From NCBI GenBank assembly GCA_020845895.1, contig JADLEX010000060.1:1-64000 (forward strand): a stretch of DNA of 64,000 nt, in the 5' to 3' direction. A model generated the notes under the pieces. The model saw nothing but the letters and a program-made list of their open reading frames with translations, was not told the DNA's origin and ran no database searches. Source of the stretch: Deltaproteobacteria bacterium (GTDB taxonomy: Bacteria; Lernaellota; Lernaellaia; JACKCT01). Position numbers and translations under genes: made by a program. Of this stretch, positions 301 through 8,601 are shown in pieces; the first letter of the stretch is position 1, and the number at the start of each line of letters is the position of its first letter.

Positions 301-387
301 GTCGCTTCGATCGAATCCGCGGATTTTTACGTCCTGCGAACGGGGCGCTAGAAAAACGCCTTTCGCACGCCTCGATCGCGGTCGCGG

Positions 388-415
388 CATGTGGCACAGC
401 CGCCCCCGGGCTGCG
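388..415 (+). repeat. short dispersed repeat, copy 1 of inverted pair
   Basis: The core TGTGGCACAGCCGCCCCC recurs in inverted orientation at 2013-2039. The match covers about 27 bases with one extra G. A third, diverged version (TGGCGCAGCCGCCACCGG) follows at about 436-453. The two good copies bracket the AT-rich nuclease gene. The sequence is non-coding; the odd proteins it would encode in any frame are not conserved-looking. Confidence 0.6.
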
Positions 416-477
416 ATCCAGTCGCCTTCGACACGTGGCGCAGCCGCCACCGGCTGTGGGGAACCCACTTCGCATCA

Positions 478-498
478 TCGCTCGCGACTCGCGAGCGA
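478..498. other. perfect 9-bp hairpin
   Basis: The arms TCGCTCGCG and CGCGAGCGA are separated by ACT. No T-tract follows on either strand, so this is not a convincing terminator. It sits among the short repeats in the gene-free stretch 124-840, which otherwise contains only the repeats listed here and no credible coding frame. Confidence 0.4.
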
Positions 499-619
499 CG
501 ATCGCGAAAACGCACGAGGCGAAGGCATACGGAGATTTTTCCAGCTAATTCATTATCGTGTCCGCGGAATTCCCCGGAATTTGGAATTCTCGCAATGGCT
601 TCTGGGGAGATCAAGATCG

Positions 620-635
620 GAAAGTTCGCCACTCG
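620..635 (+). repeat. 16-bp direct repeat, copy 1
   Basis: The sequence GAAAGTTCGCCACTCG occurs here and again at 750-765, exactly 130 bases apart, just upstream of the nuclease gene. Both copies are followed by diverged sequence. It may be a dispersed repeat family or a binding site; neither can be decided from this window alone. Confidence 0.5.
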
Positions 636-749
636 ACGATTTCTCTGTAAGGTTTCCCCCGTGCCGCCGGTATAGAGATGGTATGAACCGAATCGCCACG
701 AGGAACGGCCCGTCCGAAGCCCTTCTGAGATTTTCCCCGACCGCTGGGC

Positions 750-765
750 GAAAGTTCGCCACTCG
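750..765 (+). repeat. 16-bp direct repeat, copy 2
   Basis: Identical to 620-635 over 16 bases (GAAAGTTCGCCACTCG). It lies 75 bases upstream of the ATG of the nuclease gene, close enough to affect its transcription if it is a protein-binding site. Confidence 0.5.
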
Positions 766-840
766 GCGTCCGACCGACACGCCACCCGATTCGGGTCCAC
801 CTGTTCCAGAAACCGCCCACAACCCCGATTGGAGAACGAA

Positions 841-1815
841 ATGGAAGAACTCGTTTTGAGTAAATTGAGCGAAATCGCCGACTCGCTGCGCCGCATCGCA
901 GACGTGCTCGAATCACAAACAAATCAAACAAAAACTGACGTAGAGAGATCTATCGCATTGGCACCCGGCACGATAACGCGAGTTGAAATTCAACCAGTGG
1001 AAAAATCCGCATTGAGCGCAGAGGCAGATTCACCTGAGTCTGAAGGCAATCGCAGTAGCACTTCAGCGGATCGCCGAAACATCATTAGAGAGTTTTTAAC
1101 AAGTCGAAATATAAAAATTAAAACCGAGCCTGCGCAAGATTCCGCCGATGAGACACTGAACAAACTGGCGGTTTACATGGGATCAAAATACGGAGATATT
1201 GCAATGTTTTACAAAAAGATCAAGTCCGCCATGAATCAGGGAACCCCAATCAATTTAAACTTAAAGGATATGCCTCAAAGCACCATATCATCTACATGTC
1301 AATTGGCATACATGCTTCACGAAATTGCATTTCTCGAAGAGTATAAATACAAAAATGCGCCTTATTTTCAACTATTTGCAAGGCCAAGTCGTTTTCCAAA
1401 GGCGTTGAGCTTCTTTTCGGGCGGATGGCTTGAACGATACGGCGTCTCCGAGTCATACGAAGCTGCGCGTAGCGTGAACCCATCTATCGAATGCTCACAT
1501 CTCTCCAACATTCAAATTGTGTTACCTAACGGCGATGACTTTGAACTCGATCTACTGTTCGAAGCACGGGGGTCCATACATTGGGTGGAACTAAAAACGG
1601 GATCTCACCACGAGTACATCGCAAAGTACTCCAAAATGAGTAAAATACTTAAATTGGATGTAGCGCACAGCTATATGGTCCTTACAGACGTCAGCCCCGA
1701 AACAGCGAAAACCCTCTCTGCACTGTTCAAGATGACCGTCACGAGAGCGGAAAGTTTCGAAGACGCGATCAGGTCAACAATTATTCATGATCTTGCAATT
1801 GAGGAAAAATGTTAA
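841..1815 (+). CDS. putative PD-(D/E)XK nuclease-fold protein
   Basis: The 324-residue protein starts with an amphipathic helical, possibly coiled-coil region (residues 1-25). A polar linker and a helical middle domain follow, then a C-terminal restriction-endonuclease-like core. The core shows GGWLERYG, then DDFELDLLF, then a strand ending VELKTG: the spaced D...ExK pattern and the GGWLE helix seen in DUF1887/Card1-type nucleases. No CARF sensor domain is present. ATG 841 is preferred over an in-frame TTG at 829 because GGAGA sits six bases before it. Base composition is clearly more AT-rich than its neighbours and codon use differs, which points to horizontal acquisition. It stands alone, flanked by inverted short repeats. 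DNA or RNA cleavage in defence is inference. Confidence 0.7.
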   Translation: MEELVLSKLSEIADSLRRIADVLESQTNQTKTDVERSIALAPGTITRVEIQPVEKSALSAEADSPESEGNRSSTSADRRNIIREFLTSRNIKIKTEPAQDSADETLNKLAVYMGSKYGDIAMFYKKIKSAMNQGTPINLNLKDMPQSTISSTCQLAYMLHEIAFLEEYKYKNAPYFQLFARPSRFPKALSFFSGGWLERYGVSESYEAARSVNPSIECSHLSNIQIVLPNGDDFELDLLFEARGSIHWVELKTGSHHEYIAKYSKMSKILKLDVAHSYMVLTDVSPETAKTLSALFKMTVTRAESFEDAIRSTIIHDLAIEEKC

Positions 1816-2012
1816 AACATATTTAATGAGTTTTTATCGCGAGCGCCAACATCCTCGCCAATCGTCAATGGAACTGGGTGTCTCGTGATGTCGCCCCCAA
1901 AACTACATGGGTCGCAACAAGGGCGGCCGATCAGGCACGGCACGCCGCGCGAGCGACGAAGTCGATTTTTCCGCGATCCGTCTGTCGATCTGGCGCTCGG
2001 CGTTCCCGAGCC

Positions 2013-2039
2013 GCGCAGCCGGGGGCGGCTGTGCCACAT
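2013..2039 (-). repeat. short dispersed repeat, copy 2 of inverted pair
   Basis: Reverse complement of the element at 388-415, with core TGTGGCACAGCCGCCCCC. It lies in the 240-base gap between the nuclease gene and glnD, 17 bases from the glnD stop. The remainder of that gap shows no credible gene. Confidence 0.6.
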
Positions 2040-2055
2040 CCCGACACGGGATACA

Positions 2056-8253: not shown

Positions 8254-8601
8254 TCAGCGTGTCGGACCGCCGCCCAAAACCAGCACCATGCCGAGCGCGA
8301 GAAGCCCCATGCCGATGTACTGGTGATAGTGAAGCGTCTCTCGCAGAAGGAACTTTGACACGAGCACGACGCAGATGACGCCGGAGAACAGGTGGAACGC
8401 CGCCATTTGCGCGCCGGAGTACGTCCCGTAACCGAGGCGCGTCGCGAAAACGTTGAGAATGTACTCGGGCAACACGATCATCCAGCTCAATGCGAGAGCG
8501 ACGAGAAACCCGCGTTCGCGGATGCGCAGATGGCCGAGCCATGCCGTCGCCATGAACGCGCCCGACAGGAAGATCATGATGGGAACGGCGATCGTTCTCA
8601 T
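8254..8601 (-). CDS. DMT-superfamily small membrane protein (DUF486)
   Basis: A 115-residue protein with about four transmembrane helices. The pattern FMATAWLGHLRI, then LSWMIVLPEYILNVFATRLGYG, then LLRETLHYHQYIGMGLLALG matches the DUF486 family of single-unit drug/metabolite-transporter-like proteins. Family members are usually 110-120 residues, so it is full length. Substrate unknown. The stop lies 42 bases from that of the convergent sigma-54 activator. Confidence 0.8.
   Translation of the reverse strand: MRTIAVPIMIFLSGAFMATAWLGHLRIRERGFLVALALSWMIVLPEYILNVFATRLGYGTYSGAQMAAFHLFSGVICVVLVSKFLLRETLHYHQYIGMGLLALGMVLVLGGGPTR

Follow-up and report, generated by a model that had tools for sequence, protein, structure and literature searches.

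The nuclease gene and its setting

The window analyzed here, a stretch of 64,000 nucleotides that starts at the first base of contig 60 of the assembly, carries near its left end an intact open reading frame for a protein of 324 amino acids (Table 1). A TTG codon at 829 lies in frame and is a possible alternative start. The GC content of the gene is 0.443, whereas 33 long ORFs of the window average 0.649 (sd 0.044); its GC3 is 0.46 compared with 0.70. Both values are in line with the first-pass annotation, which had described the gene as AT-rich and unlike its neighbours. The motifs quoted there, GGWLERYG, FELDLLF and VELKTG, are all present in the protein.

Only 840 bp are visible 5' of the gene and the upstream neighbour is out of view. 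In two related genomes (G001 and G002) the glnD flank adjoins other sequence and a copy of the gene is absent, and among seven genomes searched from the same phylum the gene is present only in that of the window. Searches for Rfam families and tRNAs in the surrounding sequence gave no match, and promoter and terminator predictions in the same region gave matches that were not above chance.

Table 1. Position of the nuclease gene, its predicted parts and the repeat copies around it in the window.
Feature	Position	Strand	Basis
REP-like dispersed repeat, first copy (context, outside gene)	385..409	+	Repeat comparison, genome search
REP-like repeat, second copy, orientation as first (context)	435..456	+	Genome search, window chance test
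CDS, CARF-less Card1/Can2-type PD-(D/E)XK nuclease, 324 aa	841..1815	+	ORF, homologues, family profile against PDB, fold
Amphipathic/coiled-coil-like helix, residues 2-39, "LLERIAxALERIAD" type	844..957	+	AlphaFold, alignment
Disordered linker, residues 41-70	961..1050	+	pLDDT below 50
Helical/winged-helix-like middle region, residues 73-182	1057..1386	+	Model, PADLOC alignment, Foldseek
PD-(D/E)XK nuclease domain, residues 186-324	1396..1812	+	Profile against PDB, AlphaFold model, Foldseek
GGWLE motif, G194-E198 (G194, W196 and E198 invariant)	1420..1434	+	44-sequence alignment
E235-L-D237, equivalent to catalytic E276/D278 of Can2	1543..1551	+	Invariant; aligned to Can2 SNELDVVF
E250-L-K252, ExK motif	1588..1596	+	Invariant in 44-sequence alignment
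REP-like repeat, third copy, opposite orientation (context)	2016..2043	-	Repeat comparison, genome search, window chance test

Nuclease core and active site

Searched as a single sequence, the protein reaches 11.5 bits against Pfam PF09002 (Card1_endonuc), under the gathering cut-off of 26.4, matches Can2 with an E-value of 0.03 and aligns over residues 71-273 to the PADLOC CARF4-PDDEXK model (E 2.6e-7). A family profile built from six sequences matches Can2 (2.6e-6), Cdn1 (7e-6), VC1899 (8e-6) and Card1 (2.8e-5) in the PDB. The AlphaFold model has a mean pLDDT of 89.4, and the best Foldseek matches are VC1899 (3.1e-10), Cdn1 (1.7e-9) and Can2 (7.8e-9); all 19 PDB fold matches at E<=0.001 are one of these three proteins. 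Two matches below 0.001 in a viral structure library had low TM-scores (0.22-0.28 by query length) and were set aside.

Eight residues (Y170, G194, W196, E198, E235, D237, E250 and K252) are invariant in an alignment of 44 homologues that spans bacteria and one archaeon. Joint mutation of E276 and D278 in Can2, the residues that align with E235 and D237, abolishes activity (PMC7969007). By fold model and sequence, the C-terminal half is a nuclease of the Card1/Can2 type. Such a core had been proposed from motifs, and both checks suggested at the time were run: the fold search recovers the restriction-endonuclease-like core, and the homologues keep the D...ExK residues.

The N-terminal half

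The first helix is modelled with a pLDDT of 86-96 up to residue 30 and gives a weak match to Amphi-Trp (E 0.013). The Foldseek alignments extend over about 250 columns, exceeding the length of the nuclease domain alone. Can2 and VC1899 contain an additional four-helix, two-strand motif (PMC7969007), and residues 73-182 of the model are probably its equivalent; a helical/winged-helix region of this kind would appear to be common to Card1-type proteins. Profile searches of the N-terminal half revealed no CARF domain, and the model shows only helix and disorder before residue 73. The absence of a CARF sensor, noted earlier, is thus upheld by profiles and model alike. The accompanying idea that an unidentified sensor sits in this half is not, since neither profiles nor model show a recognizable sensor fold there and the region is accounted for by the helix, the linker and the apparently Card1-type middle part.

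The window protein therefore shares with Can2, Card1 and Cdn1 (DUF1887; PF09002) the nuclease fold and the catalytic motifs, including a PF09002-type domain with its catalytic residues, and probably the middle helical region, but has an N-terminal helix in the place of their cyclic-oligoadenylate-binding CARF domain. The same difference separates it from its best fold match, VC1899 of Vibrio cholerae (PDB 1XMX), which has a CARF domain. Nor does the gene lie within or next to a type III CRISPR locus, where those of Card1/Can2 effectors are found. Because the CARF domain that defines those effectors was tested for and is absent, the gene is a CARF-less Card1/Can2 variant outside that group. Among curated defence systems, the PADLOC models for CARF-PDDEXK and Csx1 resemble it, and these only in part.

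Repeats flanking the gene

Inverted copies of one repeat bracket the gene on both sides (385-409 and 2019-2043; 25 nt, 96% complementary), as had been reported, and the repeat occurs in the window more often than expected by chance. Such an arrangement could suggest that a transposon-like element, with these repeats as its ends, carries the gene as cargo. However, a search of the 4.98 Mb genome gave 87 matches to the repeat compared with 6 for a reversed control, and the closest neighbouring copies are often +/- pairs 35-41 bp apart, as in REP/BIME elements. Copies are also uneven around the gene, with two on the left and one on the right, no transposase lies between them, and there are no specific terminal inverted repeats of the kind that delimit a transposon or MITE. 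The bracketing element is a dispersed REP-like repeat and no boundary of the gene; because it is genome-wide and paired in the REP/BIME manner, it says nothing specific about the gene. The inverted repeats are real, while their reading as marks of a transferred unit falls away, and the transposon explanation, already largely refuted, hardly deserves any credence.

Relatives and their front ends

A direct scan of the genome contigs with the window protein alone gave no match. The first true relatives came from whole-genome searches, and the six-sequence profile then found 74 loci in the genome contigs. About 80 relatives have the nuclease core in common and differ in their front ends; some of them (L005, L053 and L062) exceed the gathering cut-off of PF09002. 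Relatives in Thermaceae have a HicB-like front end (UPF0150, Pfam 8e-13 to 8e-15), those in cyanobacteria a predicted transmembrane segment and coiled coil, and one (L006) a CxxC...CxxC Zn-ribbon recognized by inspection. Three Chloroflexota relatives (L043, L047 and L058) have a front end modelled as a TIR fold, with matches at 6e-4 to 8e-4 to TIR structures, among them plant RRS1, human SARM1 and a Bacillus cereus TIR protein. These TIR and HicB-like front ends resemble prokaryotic TIR effectors and UPF0150 proteins, respectively; the window protein itself has neither.

The small size of the nuclease, its foreign composition and the HicB-like domain of the Thermaceae relatives would fit a toxin that is paired with an antitoxin. 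A conserved adjacent antitoxin gene is the mark of such pairs, and none was found: among ORFs of at least 70 aa near the homologues, none recurs as a partner, the upstream side in the window being visible for 840 bp, and the DNA shared across phyla (see below) is a single ORF. We regard a toxin role as very improbable.

Some relatives are broken. L021 has an in-frame TAG at 8325-8327 and L006 an in-frame stop, both genes being otherwise complete, while L069 and L095 are truncated; these four may be pseudogenes or reflect sequencing errors. The genome of Meiothermus taiwanensis encodes both a helix-type and a HicB-like-type protein (L023 and L074). One candidate, L007, was discarded as a false positive, the match lying in a type II secretion/pilus gene.

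Neighbours and transfer between phyla

No cluster of neighbours is common to relatives from different phyla, and recurrent neighbours are limited to close kin. In Thermus, the gene is flanked at a conserved position by a LytR-type gene and murJ, and in Caloramator relatives it lies among homologues of secA, prfB, comF and recD2 (gene names by inspection in both cases). PADLOC matches were few among the 100 nearest neighbours at 28 loci, and a scan based on 20-mer spacing found no CRISPR-like arrays in the homologue loci. A neighbour cluster shared by 11 loci was rejected as linkage, being a mix of histidine kinases and response regulators at scattered distances.

The family tree mixes phyla. 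The window protein groups with sequences from Myxococcota, Acidobacteriota and Cyanobacteriota, a Chloroflexaceae copy is nested within Thiotrichaceae, and copies from Meiothermus, Spirochaetia and Gloeomargarita form one cluster. Within this last cluster, which spans three phyla, the DNA is 76-82% identical, and both edges of the similarity fall no more than about 20 bp from those of the ORF. At least some members of the family have moved between phyla as a lone gene. The stand-alone, transferred gene of the first-pass annotation is supported, with low GC, phyla mixed in the tree, shared DNA that ends at the ORF and no neighbour kept across phyla; the search for conserved neighbours of homologues proposed alongside it turned up none that recurs between phyla. 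Because the gene appears to travel alone, it seems to need no dedicated partner.

Other branches behave differently. The HicB-like Thermaceae branch and another branch in Caloramator relatives look vertically inherited, and these branches would also suit a housekeeping nucleic-acid enzyme, acting for example in repair, RNA decay or the handling of incoming DNA, with ordinary gain and loss behind the patchy distribution. The settings in Thermus and in Caloramator relatives, as well as the lack of a partner gene kept across phyla, agree with such a role. Against it, the family is rare: matches were found in seven of the 386 genomes sampled as relatives, a false and an interrupted one included, and in two of 281 Chloroflexota genomes, one of which is the seed genome. 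In addition, phyla are mixed in the helix-type branch, that of the window protein, and some copies are broken. A housekeeping role is conceivable, most of all in the Thermaceae, whose branch looks vertical, and unlikely as a general explanation, though it is the strongest of the alternatives considered here.

Relation to type III CRISPR systems

The earlier statement that the gene has no CRISPR neighbour holds for the locus, as no CRISPR gene lies within the first 4.7 kb of the contig. It does not hold for the genome, in which a type III-B locus is present on contig 45 (7061-14562) with two Cmr1 genes, a Cas10 with an intact GGDD motif, Cmr3, Cmr4 and Cmr5. None of nine proteins scanned from this locus matched a CARF effector, and Cas3_HD had no match in the host genome. 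At 11-455 of the sequence record of this locus (L092), a 36-nt direct repeat is present in two identical and several partial copies, a putative CRISPR array at most.

A Cmr locus in which no CARF effector was matched raises the possibility that our gene serves type III CRISPR as an accessory effector without being linked to it, a CARF protein or some other partner recruiting it in trans. Two further results point the same way. Cas10 (E<1e-20) is commoner in carriers of the family than in background genomes (23 of 49 compared with 55 of 372, Fisher p 9e-7, uncorrected for kinship, habitat and genome size), with a weaker excess for Cas3_HD (20 of 49 compared with 87 of 372), and a Methanobrevibacter relative (L037, 7821-11548) adjoins two Csx1/Csm6 (CARF-HEPN) genes. 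On the other hand, the protein has no CARF domain, the gene and the cmr locus are on different contigs, and 27 of the 28 neighbourhoods examined are free of type III effector genes, L037 being the exception. The Cas10 comparison is exploratory, its cut-off having been chosen after weaker matches proved to be probable GGDEF proteins, and carriers in Chloroflexota are just the two noted above. Because habitat and kinship are uncontrolled, the Cas10 excess is a lead and no evidence of a functional link. We consider the accessory-effector explanation improbable.

Proposed function

The reading we favour, and hold to be reasonably probable, is that of a self-contained, metal-dependent PD-(D/E)XK nuclease corresponding to the effector half of Card1/Can2, its helical/winged-helix region together with the nuclease domain, in which a short oligomerizing helix replaces the CARF domain and which is used conditionally, in defence or stress. 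The helix would assemble the protein and so pair two or more nuclease domains, by analogy with the CARF dimers of Can2. In Can2, the paired domains cut after the CARF dimer binds cA4; here the same cutting would be brought about through the helix, with the assembled domains nicking or degrading DNA, RNA or both by means of E235, D237, E250, K252 and a divalent metal. Because the CARF domain is absent, control must come from elsewhere, which could be expression, the substrate or another ligand of the front end. Activity would then be triggered by the front-end module or the substrate and not by a cyclic oligoadenylate bound to a CARF domain of its own.

A defence or stress role for the gene is plausible. 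Against defence stand the single neighbourhood with type III effectors among 28 and the searches of phage, plasmid and viral collections, which at the sensitivities used found no homologue and hence no sign of a phage- or plasmid-borne gene. Solo Cas4 belongs to a different PD-(D/E)XK subfamily. It offers a parallel as a CRISPR-type nuclease that likewise occurs outside CRISPR loci (PMC5704561).

For the family as a whole we tentatively suggest, with somewhat less than even confidence, that CARF-less Card1-type nucleases are undescribed single-gene immune effectors. The sensor would have been swapped for exchangeable modules (oligomerizing helix, HicB-like domain, membrane segment with coiled coil, TIR or Zn-ribbon), so that one core may answer different triggers and spread between phyla alone. 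A literature search for DUF1887 and CARF-less Card1 proteins, with partial journal coverage, found no description of them. In the accepted view, Card1 and Can2 are receptors that do not cut until a CRISPR alarm molecule has bound their CARF domain; a widespread relative that kept the cutter and exchanged the receptor raises the question of what controls the core when that signal plays no part. The natural TIR, HicB-like and membrane-bound fusions provide material for testing such control, and the gene would be a further candidate, compact and complete in one gene, among possible anti-phage effectors.

Sequence features upstream of the gene

Two further features were observed to the left of the gene. 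A 40-nt stretch at 199-238 of the window (CTGTCATTCCGACC...GGAATCCC) is present there in one copy, and we take it to resemble dispersed repeats of other genomes. A 19-nt direct repeat, GAAAGTTCGCCACTCGRCG, is found at 620-638 and again at 750-768, with no further copy in the window (0.11 expected); it is a possible operator.
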